Below, piece by piece: positions 4,889-37,748 of a DNA stretch of 37,748 nt. This DNA comes from Lachnospiraceae bacterium. Lineage in GTDB: Bacteria > Bacillota > Clostridia > Lachnospirales > Lachnospiraceae. How positions within the stretch are numbered: position 1 is the stretch's first letter; every line of letters begins with the position of its first letter. The DNA lies in the NCBI GenBank assembly GCA_017397645.1, contig JAFQIE010000017.1, positions 1 to 37,748 on the forward strand, read 5' to 3'. The notes beneath the pieces are model-generated. The model ran no database searches, was not told the origin of the DNA, and saw only the letters and a list, made by a program, of their open reading frames with translations. Position numbers and translations under genes: made by a program.

Positions 4889-5733
4889 CCTACAGGGAAT
4901 TATATCTACAGGGACAGGAAGCCTTAAAGTGTGCAGATATAGAGGAAGCTTCTCTGGATGCCAGATTATTACTTGAATATGTTTGCGGTACCACAAGAAA
5001 TGAATTGCTTCTTGGTGGGGAACGCGAGGTGACAGAGGGACAGATTGCGCAGTATTTGCATTTCATCGGAAGCAGAGCGAAACACATTCCGCTACAACAT
5101 TTAACAGGGACCCAGAACTTTATGGGGCTGGATTTTAAGGTAAATGAGCATGTGCTGATACCCAGGCAGGATACTGAAATACTGGTAGAGGAAGCCATGA
5201 AGCATCTACATGATGGTATGCGGATACTGGACATGTGTACGGGCTCCGGTTGTATTTTGATTAGTTTATTGCATTACTCTAATGATTGTACCGGTGTGGG
5301 GGTGGATATATCCGCAGAAGCACTGACGGTAGCAAGGGAGAATGCAGACCGGTTGTTAAAGGGCAAAGCGGAGAAGATTTCCTTTGTAGAAAGTGATTTA
5401 TTTGAAGATGTGGAAGGACAGTTTGACCTGCTTGTGTCAAATCCTCCATATATATGTAGTAAAGTGATTGAAACCTTGATGCCGGAGGTGCGGGAGCACG
5501 AGCCCCTATCCGCATTGGATGGGACGGAAGATGGCTTGTATTTTTACCGCCGTATCGTGGCAGAAAGTGGGAAATATCTTGTCCCCGGTGGTGTACTGAT
5601 TTTTGAAATTGGTTATGACCAGGGGAAGGCAGTGAGTGACCTTATGATACAAGCAGGCTACAGGGAGGTTCAAGTGTTGCAGGATTATGCAGGTTTGGAC
5701 AGAGTGGTCTGTGGAATTAAGAGTAGAAAGTAG
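4885..5733 (+). CDS. prmC: Peptide chain release factor N5-glutamine methyltransferase PrmC
   Basis: 282 aa. Methylates the glutamine of the GGQ motif in RF1 and RF2 using AdoMet. The N-terminal helical substrate-recognition domain spans about 1-75 (ARLLLEYV). The Rossmann core has motif [12 protein letters not shown] (114-124), the acidic loop VDIS (140-143) and the diagnostic NPPY at 186-189. The start overlaps the DUF1385 stop by 4 nt. It lies 14 nt upstream of prfA, whose product is its substrate, the classical arrangement. Confidence 0.96.
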
Positions 5734-11496: not shown

Positions 11497-13452
11497 ATGA
11501 AAATCACATTGAAAGACGGCTCCGTGAAGGAGTACGCAGAAAGTAAAAGTGTATATGACATTGCGTTAGACATCAGCGAAGGCCTGGCAAGAGTGGCTTG
11601 TTGTGCGTTGGTGAACGGCAAGGTGGTTGACCTTAGAACCGTCATTGCAGAGGATTGCGAGTTAAGTATCTGTACCGCTAACGATAAGGAAGGCTTGGCT
11701 ACACTTCGTCATACCACCTCCCATGTATTGGCAGAAGCGGTAAAGAATCTTTTTCCCGATGCGAAACTTGCCATCGGTCCCAGCATTGATACGGGATATT
11801 ATTATGACTTCGAGCATGCACCTTTTTCCAGAGAGGATTTGGATGCCATTGAAGCAGAAATGAAAAAAATCATCAAAAAGGGCGACAGATTGGAGAAGTT
11901 TACTCTTCCCAGAAAAGAAGCTATTAAGTTTATGGAGGAAAGACAGGAGCCTTACAAGGTGGAACTAATTCGTGACCTGCCTGAAGATGCAGTAATTTCC
12001 TTCTATCGTCAGGGTGAGTTCGTTGACCTGTGTGCCGGTCCTCACATGATGAATACCAAGAATATCAAAGCGTTCAAACTGATTTCTTCCTCCGGTGCGT
12101 ACTGGCGAGGAAAATCCGAGAACACCATGCTCCAGAGAATTTATGGTACTGCCTTCAACAAAAAAGAAGAGTTGGAAGAGTACTTGGTTTATCTGGAAAA
12201 CGTGAAGAACCGTGACCATAACAAATTGGGACGCGAGATGGAACTTTTCACCACGGTGGATGTCATCGGCCAGGGTCTGCCCCTGCTGATGCCCAAGGGT
12301 GCGAAAATGATTCAGACTATGCAGCGTTGGATTGAGGATGAAGAAGAAAAACGCGGTTATGTGCGCACTAAGACTCCTTTGATGGCAAAGAGCGATTTGT
12401 ATAAGATTTCCGGTCACTGGGATCACTACAAAGAGGGTATGTTTGTTATGGGAGAGGAAGAAAAGGACAAAGAAGTATTTGCCCTTCGTCCCATGACCTG
12501 TCCTTTCCAGTATTATGTATATAAGGCAAGCCAGAAATCTTATCGTGACTTGCCCATCCGTTATGGTGAAACTTCCACTTTGTTTAGAAATGAAGATTCC
12601 GGTGAGATGCACGGCTTGACCCGTGTGCGCCAGTTCACTATTTCTGAAGGGCACCTGATTGTGAGACCTGACCAAATGGTCGAGGAGTTCAAGGGTTGTT
12701 TGGCCTTGGCGAAGTATTGCTTGGATACTTTGGGCGTGGGTGATGATGTGACTTACAGATTGTCCAAGTGGGACCCTGAGAATCCGGACAAATACATTGG
12801 CGGAGCTGATGTTTGGGAAGAGACCGAAGGCCATATCCGTAGTGTGCTGACAGAGTTGGGCATTCCCTTTGTAGAGGGTGTTGGTGAGGCTGCGTTCTAT
12901 GGTCCTAAGGTGGATATCCAGGCGAAGAACGTATACGGAAAAGAAGATACCATGATTACCATTCAGTGGGATGCTCTTTTAGCAGAACAGTTCGATATGT
13001 ACTACATCGACCAAAACGGTGAAAAGGTTCGTCCTTATATCATCCACAGAACTTCCATGGGATGCTACGAGAGAACCTTGGCGTGGTTGATTGAAAAATA
13101 TGAAGGTAAGTTCCCTACCTGGTTGTGTCCTGAACAGGTTCGTATCCTGCCTATCTCCGAAAAGTTTAACGATTATGCACAGAAGGTATTGGCGGAACTT
13201 CAGGAGAATGGCATTCTGGCAACCATTGACGGACGTTCCGAGAAGATTGGTTTCAAGATTCGAGAGGCCCGTCTGAATAAGATTCCTTATATGTTGGTGG
13301 TTGGCCAGCAGGAGGAAGAGGAGAGCCTTGTATCCGTAAGAAGCCGTTTTGCGGGAGATGAGGGACAGAAGTCCTTGGATATCTTTATCGATCAGATATG
13401 CAAGGAAATTCGCACCAAGGAAATCCGCAAGGTGGAAGTGGAAACGAACTAA
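11497..13452 (+). CDS. thrS: Threonyl-tRNA synthetase
   Basis: 651 aa from the ATG at 11497, 7 nt after GGAG; an upstream in-frame ATG at 11458 lies in the T-box terminator. Domains: N-terminal TGS (1-60, MKITLKDGSVKEY), second additional editing domain with HTTSH at 72-76, class II catalytic core (about 245-535) with MTCPFQ and the motif 2 region FRNEDSGEMHGLTRVRQF, motif 3 GCYERTLAWLIE, and the C-terminal anticodon-binding domain (about 540-640). It charges tRNA-Thr in the cytoplasm and edits mischarged Ser. Expression is controlled by the T-box upstream, and a terminator follows. Confidence 0.97.
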   Translation: MKITLKDGSVKEYAESKSVYDIALDISEGLARVACCALVNGKVVDLRTVIAEDCELSICTANDKEGLATLRHTTSHVLAEAVKNLFPDAKLAIGPSIDTGYYYDFEHAPFSREDLDAIEAEMKKIIKKGDRLEKFTLPRKEAIKFMEERQEPYKVELIRDLPEDAVISFYRQGEFVDLCAGPHMMNTKNIKAFKLISSSGAYWRGKSENTMLQRIYGTAFNKKEELEEYLVYLENVKNRDHNKLGREMELFTTVDVIGQGLPLLMPKGAKMIQTMQRWIEDEEEKRGYVRTKTPLMAKSDLYKISGHWDHYKEGMFVMGEEEKDKEVFALRPMTCPFQYYVYKASQKSYRDLPIRYGETSTLFRNEDSGEMHGLTRVRQFTISEGHLIVRPDQMVEEFKGCLALAKYCLDTLGVGDDVTYRLSKWDPENPDKYIGGADVWEETEGHIRSVLTELGIPFVEGVGEAAFYGPKVDIQAKNVYGKEDTMITIQWDALLAEQFDMYYIDQNGEKVRPYIIHRTSMGCYERTLAWLIEKYEGKFPTWLCPEQVRILPISEKFNDYAQKVLAELQENGILATIDGRSEKIGFKIREARLNKIPYMLVVGQQEEEESLVSVRSRFAGDEGQKSLDIFIDQICKEIRTKEIRKVEVETN

Positions 13453-33039: not shown

Positions 33040-35130
33040 ATGTACCAGAGTTTTGAAATGGAACTTGCTGGACGTACCCTGAAGGTGGATATCAACCGTG
33101 TGGGTAAGCAGGCAAATGGTTGTGCATTTATGCACTATGGTGATACAGTTGTACTTTCTACCGCAACTGCATCCGAGAAGCCCAGAGACGGAATCGACTT
33201 CTTCCCTCTGAGCGTAGAATATGAAGAAAAATTGTATGCAGTAGGTAAAATCCCCGGAGGATTCAACAAGAGAGAGGGTAAGGCAAGTGAGAATGCAATT
33301 CTGACAAGCCGTGTTATCGACAGACCCATGCGTCCCTTGTTCCCCAAGGACTACCGCAATGATGTTACCCTGAACAACCTTGTTATGAGCGTGGATCCTG
33401 CGTGCCGTCCTGAATTGGTGGCAATGCTCGGTTCTGCAATTGCAACTTGCATTTCCGATATTCCCTTCGATGGTCCTTGTGCAATGACACAGGTGGGATT
33501 GATTGATGGTGAATTCGTACTGAACCCTTCCCAGGAACAGTGGAAAGTAGGGGATTTGAACCTGACTGTTGCTTCTACCAAGGAAAAGGTAATCATGATT
33601 GAGGCAGGTGCTAACGAGGTTCCCGAAGATAAGATGTTGGAAGCTATCTATATGGCTCATGATGTGAACCAGACCATCATCGCGTTCATCGAGAAAATTG
33701 TAGCAGAAGTTGGTAAGGCAAAACATGAGTACACCAGCTGCGCAATCCCTCAGGAAATGTTTGACGAAATGAAGAAGATTGTAACTCCTGAAGAAATGGA
33801 AGTTGCAGTATTCACAGATGACAAGCAGACCCGTGAAGAGAATATCCGTGTGATTACAGCTAAATTGGAAGAGGCATTTGCTGAAAACGAAGAGTGGTTG
33901 GCAATGCTCGGTGAGGCTGTATACCAGTACGAAAAGAAGACTGTACGTAAGATGATTCTGAAAGATCACAAGCGTCCCGATGGCCGTGAGATCACCCAGA
34001 TTCGTCAGTTGGCTGCAGAAGTTGATATTATCCCCCGTGTACATGGTTCCGCTATGTTTACCCGTGGACAGACCCAGATTTGTAACGTATGTACCTTGGC
34101 ACCTTTGTCCGAACAGCAGAAGATTGATGGTTTAGATGACAATGAGGTGGCAAAGAGATACATGCATCATTATAACTTCCCTTCCTACTCTGTAGGGGAG
34201 ACAAAGCCCTCCAGAGGTCCGGGAAGACGTGAGATTGGTCACGGCGCATTGGCAGAGAGAGCATTGATTCCCGTTCTGCCCAGCGAAGAGGAATTCCCTT
34301 ATGCAATCCGTACTGTATCCGAAACCTTTGAATCCAATGGTTCTACTTCCATGGCTTCCACCTGTGCTTCCTGTATGTCCCTGATGGCAGCAGGTGTGCC
34401 CATCAAGAAGATGGTAGCAGGTATTTCCTGTGGTTTGGTTACCGGTGAGGAAGATGACGATTTCGTACTTTTGACCGATATTCAGGGCTTGGAAGACTTC
34501 TTTGGCGATATGGACTTCAAGGTAACCGGTACAACTGAAGGTATCACTGCTATCCAGATGGATATCAAGATTCACGGTTTGACCAGACCCATTGTAGAGG
34601 GTGCTATCGCAAGATGTCGTGAGGCAAGACTCTTTATCATGGATACTTGTATGAAGCCTGCAATCGCAGAGCCCAGACCTGAAGTTGGTCCTTACGCTCC
34701 CAAGATTGTTTCCATCCAGATTGACCCTGAAAAGATTGGTGAAGTGGTTGGACAGAGAGGAAAGACCATCAACGAGATTATTGCTCGTACCGGCGTTAAA
34801 ATTGATATCACCGATGACGGTATGGTTTCCGTATGCGGTACTGACAAGGATATGATGGACAAGGCTGTAGAGATGATTCAGATCATCACAACCGAGTTCG
34901 AAGAAGGTCAGATTTTCAAGGGCAAAGTGGTAAGCATTAAAGAGTTTGGCGCATTTATCGAGTTCGCTCCCGGCAAGGAAGGAATGGTTCACATTTCCAA
35001 GATTGCAAAGGAAAGAATCAACCATGTAGAAGATGTACTCACCCTTGGCGATAATGTTACTGTTGTATGCCTTGGCAAGGACAAGATGGGAAGAATCAGC
35101 TTCTCTATGAAGGACGTAGCACAGGCATAA
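33040..35130 (+). CDS. pnp: Polynucleotide phosphorylase (PNPase)
   Basis: 696 aa from the ATG at 33040 (GGAGAGA upstream); a longer in-frame reading from 32944 runs through the leader stem and is rejected. Phosphorolytic 3'-5' exoribonuclease. First RNase PH domain 1-220, helical linker, second RNase PH domain about 310-540 (HGSAMFTRGQTQ, GHGALAERALIP, FEDxxGDMDFKV-like FFGDMDFKV), KH domain about 555-615 (GEVVGQRGKTINEIIARTG) and S1 domain about 620-695 (GKVVSIKEFGAFIEFAPGKE). Full length. Terminator after the gene. Confidence 0.98.
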   Translation: MYQSFEMELAGRTLKVDINRVGKQANGCAFMHYGDTVVLSTATASEKPRDGIDFFPLSVEYEEKLYAVGKIPGGFNKREGKASENAILTSRVIDRPMRPLFPKDYRNDVTLNNLVMSVDPACRPELVAMLGSAIATCISDIPFDGPCAMTQVGLIDGEFVLNPSQEQWKVGDLNLTVASTKEKVIMIEAGANEVPEDKMLEAIYMAHDVNQTIIAFIEKIVAEVGKAKHEYTSCAIPQEMFDEMKKIVTPEEMEVAVFTDDKQTREENIRVITAKLEEAFAENEEWLAMLGEAVYQYEKKTVRKMILKDHKRPDGREITQIRQLAAEVDIIPRVHGSAMFTRGQTQICNVCTLAPLSEQQKIDGLDDNEVAKRYMHHYNFPSYSVGETKPSRGPGRREIGHGALAERALIPVLPSEEEFPYAIRTVSETFESNGSTSMASTCASCMSLMAAGVPIKKMVAGISCGLVTGEEDDDFVLLTDIQGLEDFFGDMDFKVTGTTEGITAIQMDIKIHGLTRPIVEGAIARCREARLFIMDTCMKPAIAEPRPEVGPYAPKIVSIQIDPEKIGEVVGQRGKTINEIIARTGVKIDITDDGMVSVCGTDKDMMDKAVEMIQIITTEFEEGQIFKGKVVSIKEFGAFIEFAPGKEGMVHISKIAKERINHVEDVLTLGDNVTVVCLGKDKMGRISFSMKDVAQA

Positions 35131-35148
35131 TCAGATACTTACAAAAGA

Positions 35149-35182
35149 GAAAGAGGGGGACCGATTGCGGTCTCCCTTTGTG
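35149..35182 (+). terminator. Terminator after pnp
   Basis: Arms AAAGAGGGGGACCG and GGTCTCCCTTT (loop ATTGC between) with a short T-rich tail. Confidence 0.7.
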
Positions 35183-35282
35183 TATTATGATACATAGGAT
35201 TTATAAACAAGAATTGAAACGGCTGTTGCTCAAACGTACGAGTTTAGATTGGTGAATTTTAAGAGACAAGGAGTATAACAAA

Positions 35283-35861
35283 ATGAATGATTTGATGAAA
35301 TTGTTGGAAACCCGCAGAACCTATCGCAGATTTGAACAAAGAGAGGTGGCCCGGGAAATCATTGATGAAATCTTAGTGGCGGCAAGACTGGCATCCAGTG
35401 CTGCCAACAGACAACCTTTGAAGTATGTGGTGGTAAGCAAGCCGGCAGATGTGACTGAAGTATTCTCCAATACCAGATGGGCGGGTTATCTGCCTCCCGA
35501 ATTGGGACAGCCCAAAGACGAAGAAAAACCGGTACTGTTTATCGCAGTGGTACAGGACGAAACCATCAGTAAATCTTCTGACACCGACGCGGGTTTGGCC
35601 ATTGCTAATATGACGCTTGCTGCATGGAACCATGGAGTGGGCAGTTGTATCATTGGCGCCTGCAACAAACCGGTCTTGTCTGAAATGTTTGGACTTAGCG
35701 AGAGCGAAAAACTCCACACGGTAGTAGCTTTTGGTTATCCTACCCACACCAGCAGGATCGAAGATACCAAATCCGCCGATGATATTAAATATTACATGGA
35801 CGAAGCGGGAGATTATGTGGTACCTAAGAGAAAACTAGAAGATGTAGTGAGGTACTTGTAA
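35283..35861 (+). CDS. Nitroreductase-family FMN oxidoreductase
   Basis: 192 aa. ETRRTYRRFEQREV (FMN phosphate-binding Arg residues), SSAANRQPLKYVVV and AGLAIANMTLAAWNHGVGSC are characteristic. These dimeric flavoproteins reduce nitro or quinone compounds with NAD(P)H, but natural substrates vary and none can be assigned. Family length is about 170-220. ACAAGGAG lies before the ATG. No convincing promoter was seen in 35183-35282. The long non-coding tract with the phased repeat array follows directly, possibly on the same transcript. Confidence 0.9.
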   Translation: MNDLMKLLETRRTYRRFEQREVAREIIDEILVAARLASSAANRQPLKYVVVSKPADVTEVFSNTRWAGYLPPELGQPKDEEKPVLFIAVVQDETISKSSDTDAGLAIANMTLAAWNHGVGSCIIGACNKPVLSEMFGLSESEKLHTVVAFGYPTHTSRIEDTKSADDIKYYMDEAGDYVVPKRKLEDVVRYL

Positions 35862-35867
35862 GCTGCT

Positions 35868-36190
35868 TTACCTACTATGACAAGGAAAGCCCTACGTAAC
35901 AGGTAAAGATTTTGACTGCTGATGTCAGGTTACCCACTGCAAGACAGAAAAATGTCAGCAGTAGGTAAAAATTCTGGCTGTTGAGGAAGGGCTACCTACT
36001 GAAAAACAAAAGATGACATGCAGTAGGTAAAACTATCTAGTTTTCAGGACAAATTACCTACTATAAGACGGAAAATAGTTGCTCGGTGGGTAGAATTATT
36101 GGTTGAACGTCATAAATTACCCACGAAAGCTTTAGAAATTTTGTATGGTAGGTAAATCTGAGGACCGGGGTAACAAAGTTCCCTTTTACA
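35868..36190. repeat. Phased array of alternating half-sites (62-bp degenerate tandem repeat)
   Basis: Half-site TTACCYACTG on the plus strand starts at 35868, 35930, 35992, 36054 and 36117 (periods 62, 62, 62, 63). The reverse complement CAGTAGGTAA ends at 35906, 35968, 36030, 36093 and 36155. Each pair spans 38-39 nt and pairs are separated by 23 nt, so the site recurs every 31 bp in alternating orientation. A sixth unit at 36179 is decayed. Sequences between the sites are A-rich and poorly conserved, with traces of AAGACxGAAAA. The gene-free tract 35862-36485 holds otherwise only a terminator, an operator and promoters. It is not a CRISPR array, as the intervening sequences are partly related and the conserved parts too short. 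Confidence 0.88.
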
Positions 36191-36257
36191 CGAGAAATCG
36201 TGGTATTTAACAGATAAATCTGGAGACTTGACTATAGACATATACCGATGCTAACAT

Positions 36258-36298
36258 AAGAATACACAATATCATGTTGTGTGTTCTTTCTATTTTTC
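36258..36298 (+). terminator. Terminator downstream of the repeat array
   Basis: 11-bp stem AGAATACACAA (36259-36269)/TTGTGTGTTCT (36277-36287) with TTTCTATTTTT following. No gene ends nearby; the nearest upstream stop is nitroreductase at 35861, so the array may be transcribed as its 3' UTR or as a separate RNA. Confidence 0.75.
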
Positions 36299-36344
36299 TA
36301 AGTTAAGGGTCTCTTAACAGACAATCCAAAAGAATAATTAAATA

Positions 36345-36373
36345 TTGACCCGTTGTGTAATTAGTGTACACAA
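36345..36373 (+). promoter_or_regulatory. Distal promoter with overlapping operator
   Basis: TTGACC (36345-36350), 16-bp spacer, TACACA (36367-36372). An inverted repeat TTGTGT (36353-36358), 9 nt, ACACAA (36368-36373) lies over the spacer and -10, a repressor-like arrangement; an inner GTGTACAC palindrome is at 36364-36371. Confidence 0.5.
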
Positions 36374-36399
36374 TGGTTGTATTTTTTATAATTATTTAA

Positions 36400-36427
36400 T
36401 TGCATTTCGAATACAAAAAGGTATGAT
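36400..36427 (+). promoter_or_regulatory. Proximal promoter of the zinc-ribbon gene
   Basis: TTGCAT (36400-36405), 16-bp spacer, TATGAT (36422-36427). The leader that follows has a GCATT/AATGC hairpin (about 36459-36471) just before AAGGAGAG. Confidence 0.6.
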
Positions 36428-36485
36428 GTAAGTAGAGTAGTGCCTACATTATAAGGGGCATTTCAAATGCAAGGAGAGCGAAGGT

Positions 36486-36887
36486 ATGCGTGATAAATTA
36501 CAACGTTTCATGTGGGGCAGATATGGAAACGATAGATTCAATCAATTTTTAATGATAACTGCGATGGTATTGTGGTTGCTTTCCCTGTTTGTGAGAGGTA
36601 GCTTTTATACCTTGGCATTGGTAGTTATGGTCTATGCCTATTTTAGAATGTTTTCCAGAAATATTGCGAAACGCTCCGCAGAAAACCAGTGGTATCTCCG
36701 ACATGAGATGAAGGTTAGAAGCTTTTTGGCAAAGAAAAAGGGGCAGTTTACCCGTGTGAATGCCGATAAGACGCATCGCATCTATCAATGTCCTAACTGC
36801 AAGCAGAAAATCCGTGTACCCAGAGGTCGGGGCAAGATAGCCATTACCTGCCGCAAATGTGGAAATGAGTTTGTCAGGAGGAGTTGA
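36486..36887 (+). CDS. Membrane-anchored zinc-ribbon protein, function unknown
   Basis: 133 aa. Two hydrophobic helices at about 20-36 and 39-55, separated by the short turn VRGS, suggest a membrane hairpin with both ends on one side. A basic middle (about 56-95) leads to a C-terminal zinc ribbon with Cys102, Cys105, Cys122 and Cys125 (CPNCKQ and CRKCGN), around a basic knuckle VPRGRGK. The plan is that of a membrane-tethered metal or nucleic-acid-binding module. I cannot name a family with confidence. GGAGAGCGAAGG precedes the ATG. The next gene starts 2 nt after its stop codon, so the pair is probably coupled. Two promoters and an operator-like repeat precede it. Confidence 0.82.
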   Translation: MRDKLQRFMWGRYGNDRFNQFLMITAMVLWLLSLFVRGSFYTLALVVMVYAYFRMFSRNIAKRSAENQWYLRHEMKVRSFLAKKKGQFTRVNADKTHRIYQCPNCKQKIRVPRGRGKIAITCRKCGNEFVRRS

Positions 36888-36889
36888 AA

Positions 36890-37564
36890 ATGAAGGATAG
36901 TATGAAGCAGATTCCCAGTATTGCCAGCAGGTTAAGACATAACATTCTCGAAATGCCAAAGGAAATCAGAAAGGCCAGCGGAATTGTTATCTATGGCAGA
37001 CGGATAAAAAGTCTTGTCTTTACAACAGACCTTGCGATTATTAAGAATTGCGATGCCGATGCTGTTTTTGCAGTTTATCCGTTTACGCCCCAGCAGTCAA
37101 TCAGTGACGCAATCATTAAAGCCTCCTATGTGCCTGTTTTTTGTGGTGTAGGTGGCGGGACAACACGAGGACTTAGAACCATCTCGTTGGCTAAGGATGT
37201 GGAGTGTCAAGGGGCAATGGGTGTGGTACTGAACGCACCTATATCGAATGAGGATTTATGGGCTGTGTCCAAATCCGTTGATATTCCTGTCATCATTACT
37301 GTAACTGATGCTAAAACAGATATTCGAAAACGTCTTGAATCCGGCGCAACAATCTTAAATGTTGCAGGTGGACCGAATACTGCCGGTATTGTGAAAAGTA
37401 TCCGAAAAGATTTCCCCGATATCCCTATTATAGCTACCGGTGGAAATATGCCGGATACGATTTTGGAAACCATAGAGGCGGGGGCAAATGCAATCACGCA
37501 CACGCCACCTACAACCCAGGAACTCTTCAAAACCATGATGAGTAAATATAGGGAACAAGGATAA
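36890..37564 (+). CDS. TIM-barrel protein of unknown substrate
   Basis: 224 aa from the ATG at 36890 (AGGAGG 7 nt upstream); a TTG at 36884 is also in frame. Alternating strands and helices such as GIVIYGRRIKSLVFTTDLA, PVFCGVGGGTTRG, MGVVLNAPIS, IPVIITVTDA, ATILNVAGGP and IPIIATGGNMPDTI describe a (beta/alpha)8 barrel with the phosphate-binding loops (GG near strand 7, ATGGN) common to ribulose-phosphate-binding and IMPDH-like enzymes. No catalytic set that would name a reaction was recognised. Cotranscription with a membrane zinc-ribbon protein is the only context clue. A terminator follows. Confidence 0.8.
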   Translation: MKDSMKQIPSIASRLRHNILEMPKEIRKASGIVIYGRRIKSLVFTTDLAIIKNCDADAVFAVYPFTPQQSISDAIIKASYVPVFCGVGGGTTRGLRTISLAKDVECQGAMGVVLNAPISNEDLWAVSKSVDIPVIITVTDAKTDIRKRLESGATILNVAGGPNTAGIVKSIRKDFPDIPIIATGGNMPDTILETIEAGANAITHTPPTTQELFKTMMSKYREQG

Positions 37565-37578
37565 ATACGAACTGCCAT

Positions 37579-37617
37579 GAAACTCCCGTTCATTTCATTG
37601 AGCGGGAGTTTTATTAT
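37579..37617 (+). terminator. Terminator after the TIM-barrel gene
   Basis: Arms AAACTCCCG (37580-37588) and CGGGAGTTT (37603-37611) followed by TATT; A-run on the other side makes it potentially bidirectional. Confidence 0.8.
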
Positions 37618-37639
37618 GGCTTCTAGCCAGTTGAGTGCG

Positions 37640-37748
37640 CCGAAGTTTCTCGAAAGAGAAAATGAGGTGTGCGAAACAGAAAACCACCTGCTATGCGGGT
37701 GGTGCATTAAACTGTTATACAAAAAAATCACCTTTCCGTTATAATAAG
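37640..37748. other. Hairpin-rich right edge of the window
   Basis: Contains TTTCTC/GAGAAA (about 37647-37662) and CCACCTGC/GCGGGTGG (37684-37702), then an AT-rich stretch with TATAAT at 37740-37745. No gene is supported here. The second hairpin recalls the subterminal palindromes of IS200/IS605 elements, but no transposase is visible. Confidence 0.35.

Follow-up and report, generated by a model that had tools for sequence, protein, structure and literature searches.

An alternating half-site array in a Lachnospiraceae genome as a possible part of a mobile repeat system with a nuclease-like gene family

The window, the whole stretch of 37,748 nucleotides of Lachnospiraceae contig JAFQIE010000017.1 that we analysed, contains an array of ten half-sites in which TTACCYACTR and its reverse complement alternate. 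The array begins six bases after the stop codon of a gene whose product, from its sequence, we take to be nitroreductase-like, and it is followed by an ORF of 133 amino acids (ORF133).

35283..35861, plus strand: presumed nitroreductase-like gene, 192 aa
35868..36155: whole array
35868..35906: unit 1, half-sites 35868-35877 (plus) and 35897-35906 (minus, three mismatches)
35930..35968: unit 2, half-sites 35930-35939 (plus) and 35959-35968 (minus)
35992..36030: unit 3, half-sites 35992-36001 (plus) and 36021-36030 (minus)
36054..36093: unit 4, half-sites 36054-36063 (plus) and 36084-36093 (minus), the sole 40-bp unit
36117..36155: unit 5, half-sites 36117-36126 (plus) and 36146-36155 (minus)
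36486..36887, plus strand: ORF133, 133 aa, 3’ of the array

The initial annotation of this DNA described ten alternating half-sites phased every 31 bp. We confirm all ten within 35868-36155, with zero to three mismatches per site: the plus half-sites at 35868, 35930, 35992, 36054 and 36117 have 1, 0, 1, 1 and 2 mismatches to TTACCYACTG, and the minus half-sites at 35897, 35959, 36021, 36084 and 36146 have 3, 0, 0, 2 and 2 to the complement of that word. Among the minus half-sites the first is a weak one, overlapped at 35890 by another three-mismatch word, and no further half-site lies in 36156-36190, past the end of the array. The mean step is 31 bp as claimed, made up of steps between successive 9-mer starts that alternate between 30 bp (once 31) and 32 bp, giving a period of 62, 62, 62 and 63 bp. 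A de novo alternation score reached 4 for 35800-36300 and 0 to 2 in 300 Markov-shuffled copies. Tandem Repeats Finder did not list the array at its default score; the intervals have diverged.

The same word is found elsewhere in this genome. The assembly (1.81 Mb, 74% complete) holds five arrays with 17 units in all, and the reversed control pattern has no matches.

Contig C3, 17585-17810: four units
Contig C14 (the window array): five units
Contig C18, 30785-30952: three units
Contig C31, 8671-8709: one unit
Contig C43, 25029-25255: four units

Across the 34 half-sites of these arrays the core TTACCnACT is nearly fixed, positions 2-4 being invariant and position 5 having one exception, and most of the surroundings are near background, which agrees with the earlier view of conserved sites amid drifting intervals. 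Position 6 is T in 22 half-sites, C in 8, A in 3 and G in 1; R is favoured at positions 10 and 12, and the unit centre shows a preference for A/T. No sequence common to the five arrays was found by blastn at E 1e-6, which leaves the boundary of the element undefined, nor did the dispersed arrays of this genome have common ends.

The gene junction at which the window array sits can be followed in relatives. A search of the genus (81 genomes) returned 17 loci with the nitroreductase-like gene, with ORF133 within reach behind it in five, our own included, so that the gene order is kept in four relatives. The junction measures 628 bp in our genome; it is shorter in three relatives (202, 235 and 198 bp) and longer in the fourth (991 bp). 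The array is absent from all four (alternation score of 1 each), and the stretch before ORF133 (near 36380-36440) aligns by eye across our genome, L143 and L153. This absence, at one junction of the five own-genome arrays, suggests that the window array was either gained here or lost repeatedly, in several relatives; gain would be the simpler course. At L145 (2076-3067) the junction holds nearly 1 kb of other sequence in which, by eye, there seems to be a reverse-strand regulator gene. The window DNA had no match among plasmids.

Arrays of the same type are present well beyond this genome. A scan of an 85k-species collection with TTACCYACTR-N19/20-YAGTRGGTAA recovered 60 stretches in 23 genomes, where our own arithmetic estimate gives about seven by chance, and 52 of the 60 contain two or more units when up to four mismatches are allowed. 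The hosts are Lachnospiraceae, Oscillospirales, Treponema and Limosilactobacillus mucosae; single-unit matches in a methylotroph, a Spirosoma and a nanoarchaeon look like chance. Units are 38-42 bp long, and in most of these arrays the unit-to-unit distances are 62-64, 74, 53 or 95 bp and their sums. The initial annotation had asked whether copy number varies while the phase is kept. The number of units per array does vary, between 1 and 10, and most distances are close to 53, 63, 74, 84 or 95 bp; L026 is looser (64-66 and 91 bp), and some distances in L029 and L035 also fit less well. The arrays sit between longer ORFs, and the 16 of 66 that are overlapped by ORFs of 72-200 aa may be overlapped by spurious frames. 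The orientation of neighbouring genes is too rough to interpret, as the simple ORF caller misassigned right-hand neighbours at least in L001 and L002.

Several loci offer observations of their own. At L043 (1978-2584) and L034 (7663-7702) both arms change their word within one array, TTACCTACT/AGTAGGTAA giving way to TTACCGCCT/AGGCGGTAA, and the 63-bp period is kept, a possible record of a word changing. Limosilactobacillus mucosae DSM 13345 (L020, L040, L042, L046, L065) carries TTACCTACT units, with arrays in three of the five loci at 62, 73 and 92-93 bp. An IMG/VR contig (L007) has one unit at 12689-12728, perhaps by chance, between a 389-aa gene and a 75-aa ORF that by eye looks helix-turn-helix.

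It could be argued that these tracts are ordinary minisatellites whose conservation is fortuitous, and the whole unit, spacer included, is indeed repeated within many arrays (L032; L107 in G011). Half-sites are kept, however, at five places with unrelated spacers and across phyla, which makes this explanation scarcely credible. We reject it, as the five own-genome arrays, the conserved core and the occurrence across species already contradict it. The initial annotation had named a minisatellite and a decayed known mobile element as findings that would count against it. None of its refuting findings was borne out: no RNA-family or protein-family tool recognised the array, which is not an ordinary minisatellite. 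It does, though, have the look of belonging to some mobile element of a kind not yet described.

The initial annotation did not anticipate that this array exists in several dispersed copies and is linked to a family of nuclease-like genes, other members of which have arrays with other motifs. When the ORFs immediately neighbouring 66 arrays were compared all against all, one family recurred in five genomes, beside the TTACC arrays of L032, L035, L044, L050 and L062 (loci selected by motif). The next-best neighbours were found in three genomes each; they are ABC-transporter-type genes, and three families that represent the same locus in near kin. At L044 arrays flank the family gene on both sides, and the gene has an in-frame stop. 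The protein is about 260 aa long with an N-terminal half of its own, and family members had no Pfam or NCBIfam match above cut-off. Their C-terminal half matches the C-terminal end of the PADLOC PDC-S68 models in 18 of 18 proteins tested, and 11 of the 18 match the PADLOC model HEAT_CxxC_PDDEXK. Invariant columns in 70 family sequences are S-K, E, YE, PDF, EH, G, Y and E, of which we take E, PDF and EH to form a PD-(D/E)XK-like pattern; H stands where the canonical active site has its lysine, which the family does not conserve. Sequence and profile matches in the PDB were not significant (best E 0.011, to a ribosomal protein, then 0.089, and 0.72 for T7 endonuclease I). Judged by these patterns, the C-terminal half resembles a PD-(D/E)XK nuclease.

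The family and the TTACC pattern overlap broadly. Of the 23 pattern-bearing genomes, 17 yielded the gene in a profile search. Three of the other six hold single-unit, chance-like matches, and in L. mucosae, Firm_13 and RUG13559 arrays are present with no family gene at E 1e-5. Among 117 relatives the exact TTACCYACT pattern was found in one, our own genome. Its species-private look was dispelled by the protein-based search, as relatives use other words: the profile matched 32 of the 117, at 104 places, the sole match in six of the 32 being a domain within a frame of 868-1322 aa. A phylum-wide search gave 6 of 398 at E 1e-30, our own genome included. Copies can be numerous, with seven strong matches and eight weaker partial ones in G142. 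In G111 (L092), from another family of the same order, there are 21 protein-profile matches, most of them partial, one with a GATGATACT array at 74-77 bp downstream. The family profile found nothing among viral contigs. The L050 protein matched eight plasmid records, all partially (six AAA ATPases, one RecQ helicase and one without annotation), and the L032 protein matched two phage records, one a 4.2-kb fragment from human faeces that covers 93% of the query at 35.6% identity. Given this last match, it is possible that the family is carried on small mobile DNA.

The tie between gene and array was seen again without reference to any motif. We scanned the flanks of 69 of the 104 matched places in relatives together with the five motif-selected loci, and recovered alternating arrays of other words: GACCGTAGA and TACCCGTAG recur every 53 bp, AAGCCCCGG and AGGCAAGTG every 52 bp (the latter with 13 sites in one direction), ATGTTGCCT about every 61.5 bp and CTTAGTCAC every 75 bp, and there are others besides. 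An alternation score of at least 3 was reached in 38 of 73 upstream flanks and 12 of 72 downstream, and a score of at least 5 in 28 of 73 and 4 of 72, respectively; the Markov null gave 1 of 129 and 0 of 129. When the five motif-selected loci are left aside, 33 of 68 upstream flanks score at least 3 and 35 of 68 fall short. A second set, 30 of the 101 profile matches in the 23 pattern-bearing genomes and including two pairs of near-identical kin, scored at least 3 upstream in 25 of 30 (20 of them at least 5) and downstream in 3 of 29; without the five loci counted before, the upstream figure is 20 of 25. As a control we scored 308 segments of real sequence, mostly coding, drawn from the window and from 8-kb loci. 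Three of them reached at least 3, one being the L008 array; this further array, at about 5300-5590, repeats the word ATGGATAGA every 63 bp and lies apart from the TTACC array of that locus. In 54 upstream arrays scoring at least 4, among which five loci count twice, the gap between the end of the nearest half-site and the gene is 3-355 bp, with a median of about 59 bp when alignment starts serve as gene starts. Arrays on both sides of the gene were seen at L044, L133, L182 and L195; elsewhere they are mostly upstream only. Over half of the family genes examined thus have an alternating half-site array directly upstream, with lineage-specific words.

Our own genome has two family genes.

Contig C43, 32078-32848: family gene, 263-aa frame, adjoined by a decaying CGGTTGAAA array at 53 bp
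Contig C13, 28007-28768: family gene, 261-aa frame, with a TTAGGTATT array behind

The C13 frame has no ATG, GTG or TTG start before about residue 67, and the C43 copy showed stops with the match of the first profile and an open matched frame with a better one. Neither gene adjoins a TTACCYACT array, and the TAGGTATT of C13 has only the core TACCTA in common with it. In this genome the TAGGTATT pattern matches only beside the C13 gene and the CGGTTGAA pattern not at all, and no dispersed copies of either gene’s word were found. A cognate gene for the window word was not found in the assembly either, and since this is 74% complete the gene is possibly missing from it or lost. We read the window array as a dispersed, gene-less copy whose cognate is unproved in this genome.

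Dispersal is clearer in other genomes. The GGCAAGY word of G011 occurs as 69 units (reversed control 0). The matches listed come from seven contigs and fall at eight places, of which one adjoins a family gene. Counts in G018 and G046 are 17 units (control 1) and 16 units (control 0), respectively. Units are often near-identical within an array, and spacers differ between most arrays. Some distant arrays do have common spacers, in either orientation, among them C9 and C15 (by eye) and arrays of CAMAGI and RGIG2185. We read this pattern as one of copying followed by local homogenisation. The RGIG2185 arrays (L017, L021, L047, L056, L060, L061, L064, L066, L067) lie inside longer shared intergenic stretches, which by eye often end at the stop codons of neighbouring genes and bear a terminal word like TAAATTCTTGTTTA with its inverse.

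The same data bear on the idea of a self-immunity or addiction pair, in which a harmful nuclease would be held inactive by arrays that act as DNA decoys or antidote. Such a pair would explain why gene and array adjoin, and the domain is like the C-terminal domains of the candidate phage-defence proteins PDC-S68. We nevertheless think it improbable, as arrays of a motif are also seen at a distance from the gene (G011), and some genomes have arrays where no gene was detected.

The suggestion in the initial annotation that the sites would face one side of the helix gains support from the relatives. The 61 unit-to-unit distances between 40 and 100 bp in arrays scoring at least 4 fall at 52-54 (19), 60-64 (20), 71-75 (14), 81-84 (6), 90 and 94 bp, and cluster at multiples of 10.3-10.5 bp. 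The phase vector length R is 0.78 at 10.3-10.5 bp, the best period in a scan of 6-16 being 10.3 and the mean phase passing zero near 10.45; the Rayleigh value is no strict probability, because a single array, or a set of kin, contributes distances that depend on one another. Unit spacings are mostly whole helical turns: 5, 6, 7 or 8.

Helical phasing would be unexpected for a transcribed multi-hairpin RNA, an alternative for which each unit, being an inverted repeat, could pair in RNA. Agreement between facing arms does exceed that between adjacent arms at positions 5, 7, 9 and 10 (kappa 0.40, 0.32, 0.29 and 0.58 against 0.00, 0.20, 0.14 and 0.49). At the most variable position, 6, however, both are 0.46, and at positions 1 and 8 facing arms are lower. 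The 212 distinct TTACC units (2120 arm positions) show wobbles on both strands (72 and 63) and 88 mismatches, and 35100-37748 has no Rfam match up to E 1. At L137 (G006), where the array lies 23-670 bp before the gene, one base seems to distinguish the two arms of every unit (TAAGCCCC against TACGCCCC), so that a unit can be built from unequal half-sites. The facing-arm excess, weak and confined to some positions, falls short of selection for hairpin pairing on the palindrome. Covariation of facing arms is thus little above that of adjacent arms, which favours a role in DNA over one in RNA, as the initial annotation had leaned, and we consider the RNA reading highly unlikely.

Words and proteins vary together. 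In a Mantel test on 47 genes, with kin above 90% dropped and the five motif-selected loci excluded, protein identity correlated with motif similarity (r 0.332; 0 of 2000 permutations as high). The correlation is modest and is carried mainly by pairs with more than 50% identity, of which only four exceed 75%. Mean motif similarity rises from 0.32 below 30% identity (334 pairs) to 0.46 at 50-60% (21 pairs) and 0.81 at 75-90% (four pairs). Even close pairs have few spacer 7-mers in common (0-0.057, against a background mean of 0.0097): for two genes that lie in the same genome and are 82% identical, motif similarity is 0.91 and spacer overlap 0. The picture is not a simple one, however. Several protein pairs of about 55% identity differ in their words, and TTACC-type words appear in three separate clades of a 92-protein tree, through age or convergence.

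The co-variation of word and protein makes it very probable that the family protein binds the half-sites. We propose that a protein of about 260 aa with a C-terminal PD-(D/E)XK-like domain would bind the inverted pair of half-sites as a dimer, on a unit that in the TTACC family spans 38-42 bp with its arms about three turns apart. As neighbouring units are whole turns apart, bound dimers would lie on one face of the DNA and could assemble into one complex. The nuclease may then cut array DNA or its vicinity, after which arrays, many of which have near-identical units, may be lengthened by repair or strand exchange and spread to new intergenic places, where the same half-sites occur and the gene is absent. 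It is also possible that the array just upstream of many gene copies regulates the gene. That the nuclease drives the spread of arrays we hold to be somewhat better than an even bet. On the whole, we favour the view that the array consists of the DNA binding sites of a mobile system of array plus nuclease, similar to REP/RAYT and with another enzyme and other repeats, and we think this probably correct. While sites, phasing, dispersal, absence from the relatives’ junction, gene adjacency and the co-variation of motif and protein are direct observations, binding, dimerisation, cleavage and spread caused by the protein are inferred.

Alternatively, the family could be a regulatory or nucleoid system, a DNA-binding regulator with a kept nuclease fold for which upstream arrays are autoregulatory operators and dispersed ones regulon or chromosome-organising sites. 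The promoter position of the arrays suits this proposal, as does helical phasing, which is what cooperative binding would call for. Against it, the acidic nuclease-type columns are invariant in all 70 sequences, a genome can hold several paralogues with different words (six array-bearing genes with about five distinct words in G018), and arrays are absent at the same junction in relatives. We therefore judge it unlikely.

The proposed array-plus-nuclease system can be set beside several known ones. CRISPR arrays are intergenic regular repeats with unique spacers that adjoin a nuclease-type gene. The likeness lies in intergenic regular repeats by such a gene, whereas the intervals here are repeated or drifting and half-sites alternate in orientation. 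We reject CRISPR as an explanation: there are no direct repeats with unique spacers, and in L032 and L107 the intervals are near-identical. Iteron and centromere arrays (parS/parC) consist of helically phased sites next to the gene of their binding protein. The arrangement of phased sites next to the gene of a putative binding protein is similar here, but the copies are many, dispersed and intergenic, and the protein is nuclease-like. The PADLOC candidate PDC-S68 resembles the family over a C-terminal match of about 100-125 aa (in the first member), found in all 18 members; its models have 1202-1273 positions, in contrast to a family of about 260 aa with an N-terminal half of its own and repeat arrays. 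The open-licence literature, judged by titles and abstract starts, gave no description of such arrays with a nuclease-like gene, which points, if weakly, to a repeat-and-nuclease system as yet undescribed.

The closest comparison is with the REP/BIME repeats and the RAYT (TnpA-REP) genes that together form ‘REPtrons’. In the excerpts of two published accounts on which we draw (PMC2817692, PMC8266576), these repeats are extragenic, alternating, regularly spaced, dispersed and species-specific, with a cognate gene among them; RAYT protein and REP repeat are said to have co-evolved; and in Stenotrophomonas the inter-repeat segments of different REP clusters are unrelated. As in those excerpts, a gene here stands beside its cognate repeats, mostly with repeats upstream only, and further copies are dispersed. 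Relative to the same excerpts, the enzyme here is PD-(D/E)XK-like and not HUH/Y1; the word is a half-site of about 10-12 bp, paired at a set distance, helically phased and with little hairpin covariation; and arrays are mainly upstream, with several paralogues per genome that have different words. One might suppose that these are true REP/BIME arrays and that a Y1 (HUH) transposase missing from the assembly has spread them. The layout is alike in outline, with extragenic repeats that are dispersed and alternate in orientation, and a partial Y1 transposase does lie at the edge of contig C23. However, this fragment, the only Y1 match in our genome, has no alternating array in the surrounding 1.7 kb (score 1) and only two one-mismatch words nearby, 50 bp apart in the same direction; no Y1 was among the Pfam hits of the family; and in other genomes it is the nuclease-like family that adjoins the arrays. 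This leaves the Y1 explanation very little probability. The data are best explained by a system that functions in the manner of REP/RAYT but is not a member, two of three REP features tested being absent here. Whether it amounts to a new class of bacterial mobile repeat, in which a PD-(D/E)XK-like gene, with its private word in a helically phased upstream array of dimer sites, seeds gene-less arrays over the chromosome, words and proteins diverge together and several such pairs run in parallel in one genome, we regard as evenly balanced. If true, dozens of natural protein-word pairs would make the DNA-recognition code of an unnamed protein family readable, and linkers that vary naturally by whole turns would allow the part played by helical phasing in assembly on DNA to be tested cleanly. 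Moreover, the task that REP/RAYT systems perform would turn out to have been solved a second time, by an unrelated enzyme.
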